Position numbers and translations under genes: made by a program. Shown here in pieces: positions 1,755 to 31,638 of a stretch of DNA of 64,000 bases. How positions within the stretch are numbered: the stretch's first letter is position 1; the number at the start of each line of letters is the position of its first letter. This DNA is from Mesonia phycicola (GTDB taxonomy: Bacteria; Bacteroidota; Bacteroidia; Flavobacteriales; Flavobacteriaceae), in assembly GCF_900141885.1 (NCBI RefSeq), contig NZ_FQYY01000002.1, positions 248,001 to 312,000 of the forward strand, in the 5' to 3' direction. Below the pieces are notes generated by a model. The model was given only the letters and a program-made list of their open reading frames with translations. It was not told where the DNA came from and did not search any database.

Positions 1755-1844
1755 AAATTGAAGTTCTTGTTAACATATAAAAATGTCTCTAAGTATAGAG
1801 ATACATTTTTGAAAAACATTGCGAATTTACAATATTTTTTTTAA

Positions 1845-3923
1845 TTATTCATTAATTCCTTCCAAGTCTAATATAAAAGAATAATCTTCAGCTACTTCTT
1901 TTAAAGCTTCAAATCTACCTGATGCCCCCCCGTGGCCTGCATCCATATTTGTATGTAGCAAGAGTATACAGTTGTCTGTCTTTAACTCTCTTAATTTTGC
2001 AACCCATTTTGCAGGTTCCCAATATTGAACTTGTGAGTCATGTAAACCTGTAGTTACCAAAATATTTGGGTAATCTTGCGCTTTTACATTATCGTAAGGA
2101 GAGTAAGATTTCATATAATGGTAGTATTCTTCATTATTAGGGTTACCCCACTCGTCATACTCACCTGTAGTTAATGGGATACTATCGTCTAGCATAGTGG
2201 TTACTACATCTACAAAAGGAACAGCTGCTATAATTCCGTTGTATAAATGTGGTGCCATATTTGCGATACCTCCCATTAACATTCCGCCAGCAGAACCTCC
2301 CATTGCATATAAATGTTGAGCTGAAGTATATTTTTGAGCTATTAAGTATTCACTACAAGCTATAAAATCTGTAAACGTATTTTTCTTTTTCAGCATTTTT
2401 CCATCTTCATACCATTTTCTACCCAGGTACTCTCCTCCTCTTATGTGAGCAATTGCAAAAATGAATCCTCTATTTAGTAAACTTAATCTTGAACTAGAAA
2501 ATGATGGATCTGTGGTATGGCCGTAACTACCGTAAGCATATTGTAAAACGGGATTACTTCCATCTCTTTTAATACCTTTTTTATAGACCATAGAAATTGG
2601 AACTTTGGCACCATCTTTAGCGGTAGCCCAAATTCTTTCTGAAATATAATTTTCTTTTTTAAAACTAGGGTCTTGTACTTCTTGTTCTTTTTTAACTTCA
2701 CTTTCTTTTGTCTTCATGTTAAAATCTATAACTGAAGATGGTGTAGTTAAAGAGTTATAACCATAACGTAATATATCTGTATCAAAATCTGGGTTATTAC
2801 CCGTGTAGGCGGTGTAAGTTTCATTATCAAATGGTAAAAAATAATCTTCTTGATTATCCCAACTCATTATTCTAATTCTATTTAAACCATTAAAACGCTC
2901 ACCTAATACCAAGTAATTTTTAAAAATATCCATGTCTTCTAACAAAACATCTTCTCTGTGTGGTATTACTTCTTCCCAATAGTTAGAGCTGGTGTTAGTT
3001 AATGAGGTTTTCATCAACTTAAAATTGTGAGCATCATCTTTATTGGTAATAATATAAAAATGGTCTTTATAATGAGAAAAACCATATTCTACACCCCTTA
3101 CTCTTTCTTGAAACATTTTAAATTCACCTCTAGGTTTATCTGCGTCTAAGATCATATACTCATCACTCATAGTACTACTAGCACCAATAATGATGTATTG
3201 CTTAGATTTTGATTTATAAACAAAGGTGTTAAAGGTTTCATCTTTTTCATGATAAACTAATTTATCTTCTGCAGGGTCTTGCCCTAATATATGCTGATAA
3301 ATTTTGTCTGAACGTAAAGTTTCTTCGTCTTTACGAGTATAAAAAAGTGTTTTATTATCGTTAGCCCAAGTAGAACCTCCTGTGGTACTTTCTATTTTTG
3401 TTGGTAAAACCTCATTGGTTTCTAAGTTTTTTATTTGAATAGTGTATTTTCTTCTACTCACCGTATCTATCCCAAAACTTACTAATTTGTTATTAGGACT
3501 CACACTAATTCCGCTTAAATTGAAATAAGCATGGTCTTTAGCCATTTCGTTACAATCAAACAAAATTTCTTCTGCTGCTTCTAAGGTTTCTTTTTTACGC
3601 ACGTAAATAGGATAACCTTGACCAACTTCATACCTTACATAATACCAGTAACCATTAGATTTGTAGGGTACAGAAGAGTCATCTTCTTTTATTCTACTTT
3701 TCATCTCTTCAAACAAATTTTCTTGAAATTGCTTGGTATGAGCGGTCATTTTATCGTTATATGTATTTTCTTGCTCTAAATAATCAATTACTTTAGGGTT
3801 TTCTCTATCATTCAGCCAGAAATAGTTATCTACACGTATATCGCCATGCATTTCTAATTCTTTTGCAATTTTTTCTGCTTTAGGCGGAAGTATTTTTTCT
3901 TCTATCATCTTCTTAAAATTCAA
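1845..3923 (-). CDS. ptrB: S9 family prolyl oligopeptidase (oligopeptidase B-like)
   Basis: Serine peptidase of 692 residues that cleaves short peptides after basic residues if it is a true oligopeptidase B. The N-terminal part (about 1-410) is the beta-propeller that excludes large substrates. The C-terminal alpha/beta hydrolase domain carries the nucleophile in GGSAGG (serine near 544), an acid in GLHDSQVQYW (near 630) and the histidine in DAGHGG (near 663). No signal peptide is evident, so it should be cytosolic. Length and layout match oligopeptidase B rather than secreted DPP-IV. It is transcribed divergently from ybaB. Confidence 0.88.
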   Translation of the reverse strand: MNFKKMIEEKILPPKAEKIAKELEMHGDIRVDNYFWLNDRENPKVIDYLEQENTYNDKMTAHTKQFQENLFEEMKSRIKEDDSSVPYKSNGYWYYVRYEVGQGYPIYVRKKETLEAAEEILFDCNEMAKDHAYFNLSGISVSPNNKLVSFGIDTVSRRKYTIQIKNLETNEVLPTKIESTTGGSTWANDNKTLFYTRKDEETLRSDKIYQHILGQDPAEDKLVYHEKDETFNTFVYKSKSKQYIIIGASSTMSDEYMILDADKPRGEFKMFQERVRGVEYGFSHYKDHFYIITNKDDAHNFKLMKTSLTNTSSNYWEEVIPHREDVLLEDMDIFKNYLVLGERFNGLNRIRIMSWDNQEDYFLPFDNETYTAYTGNNPDFDTDILRYGYNSLTTPSSVIDFNMKTKESEVKKEQEVQDPSFKKENYISERIWATAKDGAKVPISMVYKKGIKRDGSNPVLQYAYGSYGHTTDPSFSSSRLSLLNRGFIFAIAHIRGGEYLGRKWYEDGKMLKKKNTFTDFIACSEYLIAQKYTSAQHLYAMGGSAGGMLMGGIANMAPHLYNGIIAAVPFVDVVTTMLDDSIPLTTGEYDEWGNPNNEEYYHYMKSYSPYDNVKAQDYPNILVTTGLHDSQVQYWEPAKWVAKLRELKTDNCILLLHTNMDAGHGGASGRFEALKEVAEDYSFILDLEGINE

Positions 3924-26417: not shown

Positions 26418-26813
26418 CTATAAATAGTAACCGTCTTTTAAAAACACTACCAGCATTAATACCCAACCTATTATTAAACACAACCCACCTAACGGAGTTA
26501 TAGGGCCTAGTATTTTTATCTTTTTTCCTTTACTAGAAGAAATACATAAACCATAAATACTGAAAGAAAATAATACAACTCCTACAATTAAAAAAATAAG
26601 CATTACGTGTTGTAAACTATTTACTAAGGGTAAATTTAAGCCTATCACAATTAGTAATAACGCGTGATACATTTGGTATTTTACTCCAGTTTCAAAACTA
26701 GCTAATTGTTCTTCTGTAAAAGTTTTTTTTAAGGCGTGAGCACCAAATGCACCTAAAACAATGGCTAAAATTCCAAAACTGGCTCCAAATAGTAAAGCTA
26801 TTTCTTTATACAT
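26418..26813 (-). CDS. DUF423 membrane protein
   Basis: Small membrane protein of 131 residues with four spans. The opening LLFGASFGILAIVLGAFGAHALKK and the later YQMYHALLLIVIGL are the DUF423 (YgdD-like) signature. Function is unknown. It is the last gene of the cyd transcript: its start overlaps the cydB stop by one base, which indicates coupling to the oxidase genes. Confidence 0.88.
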   Translation of the reverse strand: MYKEIALLFGASFGILAIVLGAFGAHALKKTFTEEQLASFETGVKYQMYHALLLIVIGLNLPLVNSLQHVMLIFLIVGVVLFSFSIYGLCISSSKGKKIKILGPITPLGGLCLIIGWVLMLVVFLKDGYYL

Positions 26814-27832
26814 TATTTAAATAATTTTATAAGTTGAAAAGATTTCATTAAATGGAATAATCCAGGTAAAATTACACTACCACCTATTATTAAAGCTATT
26901 CCTAAAACAAAAATAACACTATCTGGCGCTACTCCATCTAAAATACTTACCTCTTTAGTAGAAGTGATTATAATATCAGGAAAATGAGCCAACATTGCTG
27001 CAGAAAGAACAAGCAATACTTGTACTCCCGCTAAAACTCTTGCCCAAACTTTTCTCTTTAGTTTAATCATTTTCCACAGAGGAATTAATACAACTCCGGA
27101 GATAAAAACTGCTAATAAAGAAAAAGGATTCTCTAAAAAATCTAATACAAAAGCTACCTCATTAAAATAGCCGTACAGTAAGATTATAAAACCAATTAAT
27201 ACCAAAACAATGGTAGAGTAACTTGCTTTTTTTCTATATTCATTTAGCTCGTGTTCATCATCTGCTTCTCCAATTAAAAAATTAGAAGCTATAAATGTAC
27301 ATAGTGCGGTATAAAATAGACCTATTAATAAAGAAAAAGTGTTAAACCAACCATCAATATAAATTTCTTTGAAACCTAAATTTGCACCCGTTGTATGTAA
27401 ATTTATATTTCCCCCTACTAATCCTCCAAAGATAACTCCTAAAAACAACGGACTAAGTATGCTTCCCATTTTAAATAGAACGTTATAAGAAGTCTGTGAT
27501 TTTCCCTTTACTGCATCATAGTGTCTAAAAATAAATGCAACTCCACGTATGGTTATACCTAATAACATTAATGTAATTGGGATATGTAGGTAAACCACAA
27601 ATATGTTAAAGTATTCAGGAAAAGCAATCCACATAATTACAATAAGAATAATAATCCAGATATGGTTAGCCTCCCAAATTGGCCCCATTACTCTATAAAT
27701 TGTTTGTTTGGTTTTCTCTTGATTTTTAGGCAACGAAAAAAGCTCAATAATACCGCCTCCAAAATCTGCTCCCGCCAATAAAACATATAGAAATAACGAA
27801 AAAAATAAAAAGAATAAAACAACTGTTAGCAT
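26813..27832 (-). CDS. cydB: Cytochrome bd ubiquinol oxidase subunit II
   Basis: Second subunit of the cytochrome bd quinol oxidase, 339 residues with about eight or nine membrane spans. Recognisable blocks are LLAGADFGGGIIELF near the N-terminus, GPIWEANHIWIIILIVIMWIAFP, and the later SLLIGLFYTALCTFIASNFL. It supports the heme-containing subunit I but carries no heme itself. It follows cydA with only two bases between the genes. Confidence 0.94.
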   Translation of the reverse strand: MLTVVLFFLFFSLFLYVLLAGADFGGGIIELFSLPKNQEKTKQTIYRVMGPIWEANHIWIIILIVIMWIAFPEYFNIFVVYLHIPITLMLLGITIRGVAFIFRHYDAVKGKSQTSYNVLFKMGSILSPLFLGVIFGGLVGGNINLHTTGANLGFKEIYIDGWFNTFSLLIGLFYTALCTFIASNFLIGEADDEHELNEYRKKASYSTIVLVLIGFIILLYGYFNEVAFVLDFLENPFSLLAVFISGVVLIPLWKMIKLKRKVWARVLAGVQVLLVLSAAMLAHFPDIIITSTKEVSILDGVAPDSVIFVLGIALIIGGSVILPGLFHLMKSFQLIKLFK

Positions 27833-27834
27833 AA

Positions 27835-29136
27835 TTAAGCTTCTTTTTGGTTAAGTACTTTTATTTGTCTCACCATTAACCAACTTACCACACAAGTAAG
27901 TAAAATATAAATCCCTGTATAAAAAAGTAAACTATAAAAAATACCTGGCATAGGTGTTACCGCATCTTTTGTTTTCATTACTTGGTAAATAATCCACGGT
28001 TGTCTACCAACTTCTGTAACAATCCACCCTGCTTCTAAAGCAATATAACCTAATGGAGCCATAAAGGTAAAAAGCAACCAAAACTTTCTGTTATCTTGCC
28101 ATTTTTTCCATTTTAAACTCAACAAATAAAATAAACCTACTATAGCAAGCAGCGTACCAATACCAACCATTATTTGAAACGCATAGTGCACTATAGCTAC
28201 TGGTGGTTGTTCATCTTCAGGGAAATCATTTAATCCTTTTACTTCTGCATCAAAATCACCAAAGGCTAAAAAAGAAAGTGCTTTAGGTATTTCTATTTTA
28301 TAACTTACTTCTTGCTTCTCTTCATCTACAATACCACCAATATAAAGCGGAGCTCCTTTCTCGGTTTCATAGTGCGCCTCTAGAGCAGCTAATTTACTTG
28401 GTTGACGCTCTGCTACATCTTTAGCAGAAATATCTCCGCTAATAGGTTGAAATAAAGCAGCAATTGCAGCAAAAATAATTGCTATGCTAAATGCTTTTTT
28501 GTGCAATACTACATTTCTTCCTTTATATACTTGATAGGCGTGAATACCAGCTACGGCAAAGCCAGTAGCTACAAAGGCAGCCAACGTCATATGTAATGCT
28601 TGAGTAAACCAAGCTCCGTTTAACATTGCTTGAATAGGATCTATATTAGAAAACACACCGTTTTCATAAGTAAAACCAGAAGGTGAATTCATCCAGCCGT
28701 TAGCAGCTACTACTAAAATGCCAGACATCACTCCAGAAACACCAATTATTACTCCGGTAAACCAATGAAATTTCTCTGGTAATTTTTTCCATCCATATAA
28801 ATAAAAACCTAAAGCTATTGCTTCTACAAAAAATGCTGCTCCCTCTAAAGAAAATGGCATTCCTATAATTGGCCCTGCATGTTTCATAAACTCTGGCCAG
28901 AGTAAACCTAATTCAAAAGAAAGCGCTGTACCAGAAACGGCTCCAGTTACAAAAAAAATTGCCACTCCTTTTTGCCAAGCTTTGGTTAGTTTTAAATAGA
29001 CTTTATCTTTAGTTTTTAACCATTTGTAATGAGAAATTACCATAAAAAAAGGCATCACCATTCCAATACAAGCAAACACAATGTGGAAAATAAGTGTTAT
29101 TGCCATTTGAAGTCTTGCGGCCTCTAGATTTTCCAT
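27835..29136 (-). CDS. cydA: Cytochrome bd ubiquinol oxidase subunit I
   Basis: Heme-bearing subunit of the bd-type terminal oxidase, 433 residues. The N-terminal helix has RLQMAITLIFHIVFA with a heme-ligand histidine near 18; QALHMTLAA gives a second heme ligand, and the quinol-site region GWIVTEVGRQPW is intact. The periplasmic Q-loop is short, as in cyanide-insensitive/short-Q-loop enzymes, not the long E. coli form. High-affinity oxygen reduction suits microaerobic growth. TAAATTTG on the minus strand (29162-29169) is a likely -7 box. Confidence 0.95.
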   Translation of the reverse strand: MENLEAARLQMAITLIFHIVFACIGMVMPFFMVISHYKWLKTKDKVYLKLTKAWQKGVAIFFVTGAVSGTALSFELGLLWPEFMKHAGPIIGMPFSLEGAAFFVEAIALGFYLYGWKKLPEKFHWFTGVIIGVSGVMSGILVVAANGWMNSPSGFTYENGVFSNIDPIQAMLNGAWFTQALHMTLAAFVATGFAVAGIHAYQVYKGRNVVLHKKAFSIAIIFAAIAALFQPISGDISAKDVAERQPSKLAALEAHYETEKGAPLYIGGIVDEEKQEVSYKIEIPKALSFLAFGDFDAEVKGLNDFPEDEQPPVAIVHYAFQIMVGIGTLLAIVGLFYLLSLKWKKWQDNRKFWLLFTFMAPLGYIALEAGWIVTEVGRQPWIIYQVMKTKDAVTPMPGIFYSLLFYTGIYILLTCVVSWLMVRQIKVLNQKEA

Positions 29137-29169: not shown

Positions 29170-29336
29170 CTTCATATCCCTTTAAAATCTGTAGCTTTTG
29201 TTACATAGTTTGCAGGTTTAACACTTTTTTTCTTTCTTCTTATTTTCATAATTAATCGTAATTTGCGCTACCTCATTTTTGCATTAATTTCATTCTTCTG
29301 TAAATTTTTACATTTAAAAATTATCTTCTCAAAACA

Positions 29337-29428
29337 CGATAATTATCTTTATCTACTCTACAAACGATAAAATACAATATCGTCTTTTAAAACGATATTT
29401 GCATTTATCGCTTTTTTAAACGATATTT
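29337..29428. promoter_or_regulatory. 28-bp-phased operator array upstream of satD
   Basis: CGATA occurs at 29337, 29365, 29393 and 29421, exactly 28 bases apart each time. The inverted element TATCG occurs at 29378 and 29406, also 28 apart. The result is two identical inverted repeats TATCG-N10-CGATA (29378-29397 and 29406-29425) separated by N8. The last site ends just before the satD start codon at 29434. Near-consensus -7 boxes (GATATTTG at 29394 and 29422) overlap the sites, so a bound protein would block RNA polymerase. The helix-turn-helix of the SatD-like product is the obvious candidate ligand. Confidence 0.8.
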
Positions 29429-29433
29429 GACCT

Positions 29434-30048
29434 ATGACAAGTGTAATAACAGGAGATATCATCAATTCTAAATCGGTTAAATTGCCTAAAGCATACTTAG
29501 AGCAAATAAGAACAACGCTTCAAGTACTAGGCAAAGAGCATACCGATTGGGAAATTTTTAGAGGAGACAGTTTTCAGATAGAAATTAAAGATCCGCTAAA
29601 TGTTTTTTGGCAATGTGTATACATAAAAGCTTCTTTAAAAACTATAAAAGAGCTTGATGCAAGAATGGCAATAGGGATTGGAGAGAAAACTTACCACGCC
29701 AAAACCATATCAGAGGCTAATGGCTCTGCATTTATAAATTCTGGAGAAGTATTTGAGACTCTTAAAAAAGAAAAAAGCAACTTACTAATTAATACAGGCC
29801 ATACAGATTTAGATAATGAGCTAAACGTATATTTTCAATTAGCATTAATGACGATGGATTATTGGACACCAAATTCTGCCGAAATTATTAAGCTATCTAT
29901 AGAAAATCCACAACTCAATCAAAAGCAATTAGGTGAGCTTATCGGGATCAAGCAAAATACCGTGAGTGAGCGACAAAAACGCGCAGCTTTAAGTCAATTA
30001 CAAGATTTTGACCTTATATTTAGAGAAAAAATTAATTCCATTTTATGA
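29434..30048 (+). CDS. SatD family protein with C-terminal helix-turn-helix
   Basis: Protein of 204 residues. The N-terminal part (TSVITGDIINSKSV, FRGDSFQIEI, ARMAIGIGEK) matches the SatD family, named from a Streptococcus mutans acid-tolerance locus; its fold looks nucleotide-cyclase-like, but activity is unproven. Residues about 160-195 (NQKQLGELIGIKQNTVSERQKRA) form a clear helix-turn-helix. It is preceded by a phased operator array and its stop overlaps the start of the DUF3307 gene by four bases. I infer an autoregulated sensor-regulator that controls the membrane protein. The ligand is unknown. Confidence 0.82.
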   Translation: MTSVITGDIINSKSVKLPKAYLEQIRTTLQVLGKEHTDWEIFRGDSFQIEIKDPLNVFWQCVYIKASLKTIKELDARMAIGIGEKTYHAKTISEANGSAFINSGEVFETLKKEKSNLLINTGHTDLDNELNVYFQLALMTMDYWTPNSAEIIKLSIENPQLNQKQLGELIGIKQNTVSERQKRAALSQLQDFDLIFREKINSIL

Positions 30049-30752
30049 TTATTCTGCTCAAACTTATTTTAGCTCACTTGGTGGGAGATTTTTTGTTGCA
30101 ACCTTATTCTTGGGTAAAAGAGAAAGAAAATAAAAAATTAGCTTCTAATAAACTCTACTTTCACGTAGGGATTCACTTATTGCTTAATTTTCTTTTTCTG
30201 TGGAATTTAAAACTTTGGTACGTCCCACTAATTATTGCCGTTACTCATTTGGGCATAGATGCCTGGAAACTTAGTTTTCAAAATAATAAAAATAGACGAT
30301 TACTCTTTTTTCTTGACCAGCTTTTTCATTTGATTATTATTTTTGGACTTTATTTTTTAATCGAGAGAGAGAACATTCACTTTAACCTCTCGCCTGTTTT
30401 TCTGTGTTACCTTACCGGAGCTATTTTCTTGAGCACCCCCGCATCAATTATGATAAAAACGCTAATTTCTATTTACAAGCCAAATACCGAGATAGAAAAA
30501 GACGAATCGCTCGAAAATGCAGGAAAATACATAGGTATCTTAGAGCGTTTACTCGTATTTGTTTTTATTGCTACACAACATTGGGAAGGCGTAGGATTTT
30601 TAATTGCTGCCAAATCTATTTTCCGCTTTAGCGACCTTACCCAATCTAAAGATAGAAAACTTACAGAATATATTTTAATTGGGACATTATTAAGCTTTGG
30701 TATAGCTATTAATGTTGCGCTTTTAATAGGTGTTTTACAGCATAGTTTATAA
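30045..30752 (+). CDS. DUF3307 multi-pass membrane protein
   Basis: Membrane protein of 235 residues with about six spans. The start LLKLILAHLVGDFLLQPYSWVKEKENK and HLGIDAWKL are the DUF3307 signature, with histidine and aspartate pairs inside the first and third hydrophobic segments that could bind metal or protons. ATGA overlap with the satD-like gene means coupled translation. Function is unknown. A decayed paralogue lies about 1.2 kb downstream. Confidence 0.85.
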   Translation: MIILLKLILAHLVGDFLLQPYSWVKEKENKKLASNKLYFHVGIHLLLNFLFLWNLKLWYVPLIIAVTHLGIDAWKLSFQNNKNRRLLFFLDQLFHLIIIFGLYFLIERENIHFNLSPVFLCYLTGAIFLSTPASIMIKTLISIYKPNTEIEKDESLENAGKYIGILERLLVFVFIATQHWEGVGFLIAAKSIFRFSDLTQSKDRKLTEYILIGTLLSFGIAINVALLIGVLQHSL

Positions 30753-30801: not shown

Positions 30802-31638
30802 TTATCGTTTAACCACTCGCTTAATACTTTGCCCCCTATTATTCTGTATTTTCACAAAATAGACTCCAGCAGGAAGTTGTGAAATATCATATGTATTTTG
30901 CAAACCAAAATTTGCTACTTCATTACCTATAATAGAAAATACGCTTACATGCTCTATTTCTTCTAATGTTTTTACTTGAAAGTTATTTTGCACAGGATTA
31001 GGGTATAAAGCAGCTTCTATTTTGTTAGTAGTCTTTAGTGATAAATTACAATTTTCAGAAAAATTACTACTTCCAGAAATTGACCAAGTAGAATAAATTC
31101 CTTGTTGGTTCTGTGCATTTACAGAATTTGTTACTTCAAAACAAACGCTAGAATCTGATTCCTCTCCATATTTCTGTACATTTACTGATAAATTGTTAAG
31201 TTGAGTATCACTTCCCTTTAAATTAATTTTATTAAGTGACCAGGCATCAATCGCCTGAATAACTTGAAGGTTTGGATTGTTGGTCAGTATAATCTCTCCC
31301 ACAAGTATTGTAGTACTGTCTCCACCACTATTCATATAAAGTTCTTCTAAACTTCCTACTTGGCTCAAATCTAGTGTATAGCCTAATCCTGTATCAGAAA
31401 TATTAAGTATTTTAAGTGAATCAAAATCTTCTATTCCCGTTAAATCATTTAAAAGTATATTTTTTAAATCTAAATTTATTACACCACTAATATCACTTGT
31501 TAATACTTGCCCGTTTATAGTTTGATCAGAATCTATACCTAAATTAATCAAGGCTTGCTCAAAATTTTGGTCAGGAATGCTGGTGGTTTGCGCAGTAAGT
31601 TTTAAGCAAAAGAAAAAAATGTATATATATATTTTCAT
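30802..31638 (-). CDS. Short T9SS-sorted leucine-rich-repeat-like secreted protein
   Basis: Secreted protein of 278 residues. A signal peptide ends near KLTAQ. The next part (IPDQNFEQALINLGIDSDQTINGQVLTSDI, then LTGIEDFDSLKILNISD) is the start of a leucine-rich-repeat family common in Flavobacteria, but only one or two repeats remain where relatives have many. The last 80 residues form a type A sorting domain (LYPNPVQNNFQV, AGVYFVKIQNNRGQSIKRVVKR) that directs the protein through the type IX secretion system to the surface. Function unknown; it may be a shortened form. Confidence 0.8.
   Translation of the reverse strand: MKIYIYIFFFCLKLTAQTTSIPDQNFEQALINLGIDSDQTINGQVLTSDISGVINLDLKNILLNDLTGIEDFDSLKILNISDTGLGYTLDLSQVGSLEELYMNSGGDSTTILVGEIILTNNPNLQVIQAIDAWSLNKINLKGSDTQLNNLSVNVQKYGEESDSSVCFEVTNSVNAQNQQGIYSTWSISGSSNFSENCNLSLKTTNKIEAALYPNPVQNNFQVKTLEEIEHVSVFSIIGNEVANFGLQNTYDISQLPAGVYFVKIQNNRGQSIKRVVKR

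Follow-up and report, generated by a model that had tools for sequence, protein, structure and literature searches.

Immediately upstream of satD in Mesonia phycicola lies a series of short, regularly spaced inverted repeats, which raises the question of which protein binds there and what this binding does to the gene behind it. The first-pass annotation of the window (the whole stretch of DNA that was analysed, 64 kb) had placed CGATA sites at 29337, 29365, 29393 and 29421 and TATCG sites at 29378 and 29406, with a spacing of 28 bases within each set. All of these coordinates and the spacing were exact. The sites had been described as twin palindromes running up to the start codon, which held but was understated: there are four dyads, and the left arms TATCT of units 1 and 2, at 29322 and 29350, had been overlooked. 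The array consists of four 20-bp dyads TATC(G/T)-N10-CGATA in one register with a period of exactly 28 bp, and its fourth 28-bp unit (29406-29433) abuts the satD ATG at 29434 (Table 1). At 10.5 bp per turn, 28 bp corresponds to 2.67 turns and three units to 8 turns. Neighbouring units are therefore turned by 240 degrees, in agreement with the earlier remark that the spacing is near but not equal to three turns and that successive sites are rotated.

Table 1. Features of the satD-DUF3307 locus; positions are those of the window.
Feature	Position	Strand	Description
Operator dyad 1	29322..29341	+	TATCT-N10-CGATA; one mismatch in left arm
Operator dyad 2	29350..29369	+	TATCT-N10-CGATA; one mismatch in left arm
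Operator dyad 3	29378..29397	+	TATCG-N10-CGATA, perfect
Candidate -33 element, TTTG	29398..29401	+	follows dyad 3; the next TTTG (29426-29429) lies exactly 28 bp downstream
Operator dyad 4	29406..29425	+	TATCG-N10-CGATA, perfect; within the TTTG-TTTG spacer
GATATTTG	29422..29429	+	degenerate match to the -7 element (TAnnTTTG), on right arm of dyad 4; ATG 4 nt on
satD (PF16264), 204 aa	29434..30048	+	N-terminal palm domain and C-terminal helix-turn-helix
Palm domain (GGDEF/cyclase/Cas10-like), residues 1-120	29434..29793	+	carries D8 and G44-D45
Recognition helix, residues 174-183 (QNTVSERQKR)	29953..29982	+	from predicted structure
E179 codon	29968..29970	+	covaries with half-site offsets 5, 6 and 7
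DUF3307 protein (PF11750)	30045..30752	+	helical membrane-type model; 4-nt overlap with satD stop

When the window was scanned for four palindromic units at period 28, the centre at 29332 ranked first: its score of 59.9 compares with a window mean of 13.9 (sd 3.6). The twelve top-scoring centres all lay within or at the edge of the satD array (29304-29360). Single dyads with up to two mismatches were not enriched in the window, with 17 observed versus 14.0 expected. The array is thus not a product of chance, and it is the phased clustering that is exceptional. The first-pass annotation had also proposed a genome scan for further sites. Among the 26 exact matches to TATC-N11-CGATA listed on both strands of the whole genome, the satD locus was the only phased cluster, and no second one was found.

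Absence of the array in front of orthologous satD genes had been named beforehand as a refutation. It was, however, visible by eye upstream of most of the first 55 satD loci. Scanning 54 loci over periods of 22-35 and dyad lengths of 16-26 gave a maximum at period 28 and length 20 (32.0 of 36); period 28 with other dyad lengths reached 26.8-30.8 and other periods 22.9-25.4. A set of 190 loci was then made up of the first loci and 135 more, counting in the M. phycicola locus itself (L010) and containing at least two duplicate records (L011/L040 and L043/L070). In 168 of these a period-28 array scored above the largest of 190 dinucleotide shuffles, and the mean over the set at this period was 42.1 versus 23.1 for the shuffles. 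A strong period-29 array was present in 13 of the 22 loci that failed at period 28; the threshold for this test (41.5) derives from shuffles of 30 phylum-level loci and not of the same loci. Nine of the 190 loci (L030, L031, L038, L039, L074, L114, L153, L171 and L193) were without an array by these scans. Inspection of L038 by eye revealed two dyads 29 bp apart, and two-unit arrays of this kind were missed because the period scans required three copies. Among 30 distant PF16264 loci sampled across the phylum, the best period was 29 in 23 and 28 in 4, and 23 of the 30 exceeded all of 300 shuffles (period 29 in 19, period 28 in three and period 27 in one). One member of this phylum set (L212) was taken from the wrong reading frame, and some satD starts, probably including that of L198, were chosen by script and may be wrong. 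The array thus recurs. The claim as to the CGATA motif held only partly, as it is the geometry that recurs and CGATA is the version of one clade.

Three units were counted in 116 and four in 25 of the 168 period-28 arrays. Comparison of the units inside each array (144 loci) gave an identity of 80-100% for the half-sites (offsets 6-10 from the centre) and of 37-67% for the remaining positions. This contrast arises partly by construction, because units were selected on their half-site match and entered the comparison only if 9 of 12 half-site letters agreed with the array consensus. Autoregulated bacterial repressors have palindromic sites in their own promoter. Repeated palindromes under constraint in the regulator's own promoter, which is the criterion of a self-regulated tandem operator, are present here. 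In L022, L046, L048, L052, L054 and L065 mixed arrays were found, in which GGAATA and GTGATA-type dyads stand in one 28-bp register and which reach three dyads of each of the two half-site types. These arrays appear to be passing from one specificity to another, which is an inference.

The half-site differs per clade and reads CGATA, GGAATA/GGCATA, GTGATA or CTAATA/CTTATA. Its outer ATA is almost fixed and the three bases inside vary with the clade; the invariance of ATA is in part by construction, since the outer ATA was used to choose between symmetry centres 14 bp apart. The first-pass annotation had proposed the helix-turn-helix of SatD as the ligand. Covariation between half-site and protein was calculated as weighted mutual information over the 168 period-28 loci (effective number 74.5). 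Residue 179 was the top of the 204 SatD columns for offsets 5, 6 and 7 (0.71, 1.05 and 0.77 bits). It was closely followed at offsets 5 and 6 by 175 or 176 in the same helix and by 185 just past it, and weaker signals came from further columns such as 139, 140, 53 and 195. The AlphaFold2 model (pLDDT 92.3) places residue 179 in the second helix (174-183) of the helix-turn-helix. Structure models were based on the window sequence together with 21 (A2) and 17 (A3) of 25 loci.

Shared ancestry was addressed by 300 simulations along a tree of the N-terminal 140 residues (166 distinct N-terminal sequences). Residue 179 again came first at offsets 5, 6 and 7 (z 6.9, 8.6 and 9.7), with observed values of 0.90, 1.26 and 0.97 versus simulated maxima of 0.54, 0.64 and 0.48. 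It was not alone in this, as 16, 6 and 6 columns exceeded every simulation at the three offsets, and the null is therefore imperfect. When the bases were predicted from residue 179 using only loci with less than 50% N-terminal identity, 91/153, 103/153 and 92/153 predictions were correct for offsets 5, 6 and 7, compared with baselines of 11/153, 56/153 and 69/153 (15 of the 168 loci were skipped). Below 40% identity the prediction mostly failed (7/55, 7/55 and 27/55 versus 4/55, 3/55 and 14/55).

Glutamine at position 179 goes with the offset 5-7 triplet CTA/CTT (42/52), lysine with GGA/GGC (37/40) and glutamate with ACG (24/44) or CAG/CCG (16/44). Rarer pairings are M with GTG (2/2), N with ATG (2/2), Y with CAT (2/2), A with CAT (3/4), R with GTA (3/5) and T with GTG (4/7); triplets are mixed for G (5 loci) and S (3 loci). 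Further residues matter, since E179 pairs with two half-site classes and G, T, S and R are mixed. The observed pairing of E with C, of K with G and of Q with A/T fits classical residue-base contacts. As residue 179 best tracks all three variable bases, it is very probable that SatD binds the array in its own promoter. The assignment of its helix-turn-helix as the ligand is thus supported by the covariation as well as by the recurrence of the array; it remains inferred, without direct binding data.

Of 60 genomes, 17 contained the CGATA double dyad with up to two mismatches, at 34 places in all. Of these places 32 are upstream of satD; a reversed control pattern occurred at one place in the same scan. 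The two places away from satD (G004:C34:227251 and G010:C56:2131) each have two mismatches. Because 32 of the 34 places are at satD, we infer that SatD of the CGATA clade probably regulates mainly itself and DUF3307. This genome-wide exclusivity covers the CGATA class alone and not the other half-site classes. A wider CGATA regulon in the M. phycicola genome was considered and rejected: of the four other perfect dyads, the two that were examined (L008 and L009) sit inside listed ORFs, that of L008 about 60 nt past the first ATG of its ORF. The remaining two are located on contig C26, at 502848 and 517704.

Promoters of Bacteroidota have the consensus TTTG (-33) and TAnnTTTG (-7), with the start 4-5 nt past the -7 box in probable promoters, and in F. 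johnsoniae the -33 motif stands out far less clearly than the -7 motif (PMC6847099). The same -7 element is given in a second study (PMC9723704), in which leaderless transcripts made up only 5.5% of those examined in F. psychrophilum. In 95 of 109 placements in front of satD, TAnnTTTG starts at dyad offset +9, so that the TA of the -7 box is the TA of the half-site. This sharing occurs in 67 of the 168 loci, and in 33 others a dyad is overlapped by a GATATTTG-type box, in which the first base is free. Of the 96 loci with a strict -7 box, 45 have the two TTTG elements exactly 28 bp apart and 5 have them 27 bp apart. A strict TAnnTTTG is absent within 130 nt in 72 of the 168 loci, and that of the window itself is degenerate (GATATTTG). 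The strict -7 box closest to the ATG falls past the last detected dyad in 24 of the 168 loci; in 17 of them it lies 42-44 from the centre of that dyad, which is in register within a base. Loci of the CGATA class carry GATATTTG as their box, which stands 3-6 nt before the ATG (22 placements); therefore, a transcript with little or no leader is predicted. This -33/-7 reading was checked by spacing, without start-site data. The frequent overlap of the -7 box with a dyad and the TTTG-TTTG spacing of 28 point to autorepression, and repression is the expected outcome because a protein that occupies such a dyad would mask the core promoter. That SatD represses its own promoter is therefore likely, although it is inferred from position alone and no expression data are available.

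SatD matched PF16264 with 33.6 bits (cut-off 29) over residues 5-186 and thus fulfils the criterion of this family; its helix-turn-helix also matched Sigma70_r4, under the cut-off of that family. SatD was present in 34 of 60 genomes of relatives, the own genome included, and in 175 of 299 genomes of the bacterial family (161 of 249 in the good-quality subset), and almost all of the genomes listed had a single match. In the phylum sample PF16264 was detected in 66 of 296 genomes and in none of 14 control genomes. The nearest named relative is a Salegentibacter (85% identity). Some of the 175 genomes were left out of the locus set, having weaker matches or a partial one (G089), and G013, a genome of the same genus, was not used. 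In the latter SatD was found as two overlapping pieces (G013:C5:2451-3049), and satD may therefore be broken there.

Comparison of the model of residues 1-130 with known folds (VIA-align) gave the GGDEF domain 4zvg_B as the best match (Z 10.8, rmsd 3.0, 118 aligned). GTP cyclohydrolase III and Cas10/Cmr2 were the other best matches, and adenylyl cyclases and Y-family polymerases scored only slightly lower. As these tie within about 1 Z, the palm fold singles out no one family. Foldseek assigned a probability of 1.00 to GGDEF and cyclase chains, but returned no match at E 1e-3 or better. The N-terminal domain meets the fold criterion of the palm-fold nucleotide cyclases (GGDEF / class III / Cas10 superfamily). 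SatD does not meet that of the GGDEF family proper, with no profile match at E 1e-3, nor that of PucR/CdaR regulators, with no Pfam match at E 1e-3. Sequence searches against solved structures (up to E 1) gave only helix-turn-helix matches and weak, unrelated ones, and so no link for the N-terminal domain. The hairpin motif reads RGDSF in this SatD and GDEF, with the first G missing, in 25 of the 30 distant loci. D8 and D45, which the model places in strand 1 and in the hairpin, are each kept in 189 of 190 aligned SatDs. They might represent cyclase-type metal-site aspartates, an equivalence inferred without residue-level structural alignment. Since the palm fold keeps these two candidate aspartates, a nucleotide is plausible as the signal. 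SatD may bind or make such a nucleotide, which is inferred from the predicted fold only, and no cyclase activity is known.

The second gene encodes a protein that matched PF11750 with 90.4 bits (cut-off 23) and belongs by this criterion to the DUF3307 family. An ORF resembling DUF3307 follows satD in all 55 loci examined (judged by eye). All of 18 aligned DUF3307 proteins match Pfam at E 1 or better (best 7.8e-33) and share invariant H, D and Q residues. The predicted structure has ten helices (mean pLDDT 83.5 for the kept model and 67.5-79.1 for the other four), and no significant match in the PDB was found for it (best E 1.5). The protein also matched phrog_2470, a membrane protein of the moron/host takeover category (E 5.7e-14). 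A label as defence system was rejected, as neither protein matched PADLOC at E 1 (library of 2023). Divergent from satD, with 297 nt between the two starts, the region 26813-29136 (minus strand) holds a gene for cytochrome bd oxidase subunit I (PF01654), directly followed by an ORF that resembles subunit II by look. On its other side, the DUF3307 gene faces a convergent ORF (30802-31638, minus strand) whose product carries a Por secretion system C-terminal sorting domain (PF18962).

Relatives of SatD were detected on 12 plasmid records. pEC34A and ten other non-Bacteroidota records come from Escherichia, Klebsiella, Enterobacter, Pseudomonas and Pseudoalteromonas. In the four annotated plasmids of this group that were examined (L233, L235, L237 and L238) an annotated DUF3307 gene adjoins the SatD relative. 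On pEC34A (L233, NC_019077.1, 3,770 bp) the pair is located at 1792-3481, and the other listed genes are one hypothetical gene, rop and mobA, the gene table of that collection being incomplete. As the pair makes up nearly half of pEC34A, a mobile cassette is suggested; the pEC34A cassette was not found in complete E. coli genomes at megablast sensitivity. In the viral contigs L230, L231 and L232 a SatD relative is followed by a DUF3307-like ORF (by eye). Clear period-29 arrays with other half-sites are present in two of these three, L230 and L232, and a clear period-29 array in one of seven plasmid relatives (L237). No 28/29 array was detected in L231, L234 and L235, and L233, L236, L238 and L239 were marginal: L233 (best period 29) scored slightly over its 8 shuffles, L238 (29), L236 and L239 (28) under theirs. 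Named phage genomes contained no SatD at E 1e-3.

The array, its conservation and period, the near-exclusivity of the CGATA double dyad, the covariation and the predicted fold are shown. The most probable interpretation is that the array is an autoregulatory operator of satD-DUF3307, for which binding, repression, cooperativity and a nucleotide signal are inferred. According to this model, SatD dimers (the dimer state being itself inferred) would occupy each 20-bp dyad via the C-terminal helix-turn-helix. Q174 and S178, which hardly vary, would correspond to the almost fixed outer ATA, and residue 179 (E in M. phycicola) to the inner bases that differ between clades (CG in M. phycicola). The period of 28 bp (29 in other clades) would be kept by contacts between neighbouring SatD proteins and/or by the natural TTTG-TTTG (-33/-7) spacing. 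At many loci one unit falls into the promoter spacer and its right arm overlaps the -7 box, so that its occupancy would shut off transcription. The N-terminal palm domain would be the likely signal input, with repression set or relieved by a nucleotide that this domain binds or makes.

Three alternatives were considered. In the first, SatD binds but activates, the upstream units being activator sites. This is supported by the 24 of 168 loci in which the strict -7 box falls past the last detected dyad, an activator-like layout. However, 67 of the 168 loci share the TA of TAnnTTTG with a half-site, the GATATTTG-type overlap adds 33 more, and a protein on the -7 box should block the polymerase, which makes activation unlikely. 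In the second, a transcription factor other than SatD binds the array and controls satD. In its favor, there are no direct binding data for SatD and the half-site is short and AT-rich. Against it, the half-site bases follow residue 179 of SatD beyond other columns and beyond the tree simulations, and the CGATA double dyad is nearly exclusive to satD (32/34), a restriction not expected of a second regulator that controls a regulon of its own; we therefore consider it very unlikely. The third, a tandem-duplication relic or duplicated promoter units without bound protein, could account for a period equal to the frequent TTTG-TTTG spacing (45/96) and for units resembling promoter modules, but it can be all but excluded, because half-sites are far better kept between units (80-100% versus 37-67%, with the selection caveat given above), both palindrome arms are retained, mixed two-type arrays stay in register, and duplication alone predicts neither half-site constraint nor covariation with SatD.

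The autoregulatory operator has partial counterparts among known systems. Protein-DNA correlation studies on the MerR family (PMC5045206) likewise concern a helix-turn-helix protein and used mutual information for residue-base covariation. In contrast to tandem-operator repressors and MerR, the geometry of the SatD array (28/29 bp, mostly three or more units) is kept across distant relatives while the half-site drifts, the regulator carries a palm domain, and the CGATA sites rarely occur outside the promoter of its own gene. PucR/CdaR-type regulators (MabR, PMC11617747) also combine a GGDEF-like domain with a helix-turn-helix in a transcription factor, and PDB 3onq, taken as a comparison of this type, appeared at ranks 20 and 24 of the Foldseek matches to SatD. 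Unlike these, SatD is without their Pfam match, keeps two candidate metal-site aspartates, has the order palm-HTH and comprises 204 aa. Panoptes mCpol/OptS, a minimal Cas10-like cyclase with a membrane effector (PMC12657230), resembles SatD as a small palm protein encoded with a membrane protein, and mCpol (9mnr_A) was a weak Foldseek match (rank 28, E 3e-2). SatD differs in having a helix-turn-helix and an operator array, and its partner DUF3307 is not known as 2TM-beta. In the open-access literature searched, outside of which most subscription papers fall, neither a SatD operator nor tandem 28-bp autorepressor operators were found, so that the earlier claim that no SatD operator has been described held within these limits. 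DUF3307 is named in one jumbo-phage paper (PMC8504454) and the 'SatD family' in one Fusobacterium annotation paper (PMC10326533).

A bolder reading, which as a whole is no more than possible, goes beyond autorepression. In it, SatD would use its palm domain, as an enzyme or a sensor, to make or bind a (cyclic) nucleotide, and would polymerise along the 28/29-bp operator with one protomer per ~14 bp in alternating orientation. The same nucleotide would gate the DUF3307 membrane protein. The satD-DUF3307 pair would then be a mobile two-gene nucleotide-signalling cassette, serving in defence or as plasmid/phage cargo, whose operator code diversifies such that cassettes of different hosts would not cross-regulate each other.

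For SatD and DUF3307, on which the literature searched held essentially nothing, these results provide an operator, its likely ligand and a testable one-residue recognition code. Fixed 28/29-bp phasing combined with drifting half-sites, including arrays of two types, constitutes a natural experiment in how the specificities of a regulator and its operator change together. A role in nucleotide signalling deserves a direct test, given that this DNA-binding regulator carries a palm domain, has a membrane protein as its genetic partner and also occurs on plasmids of 3.8 kb.
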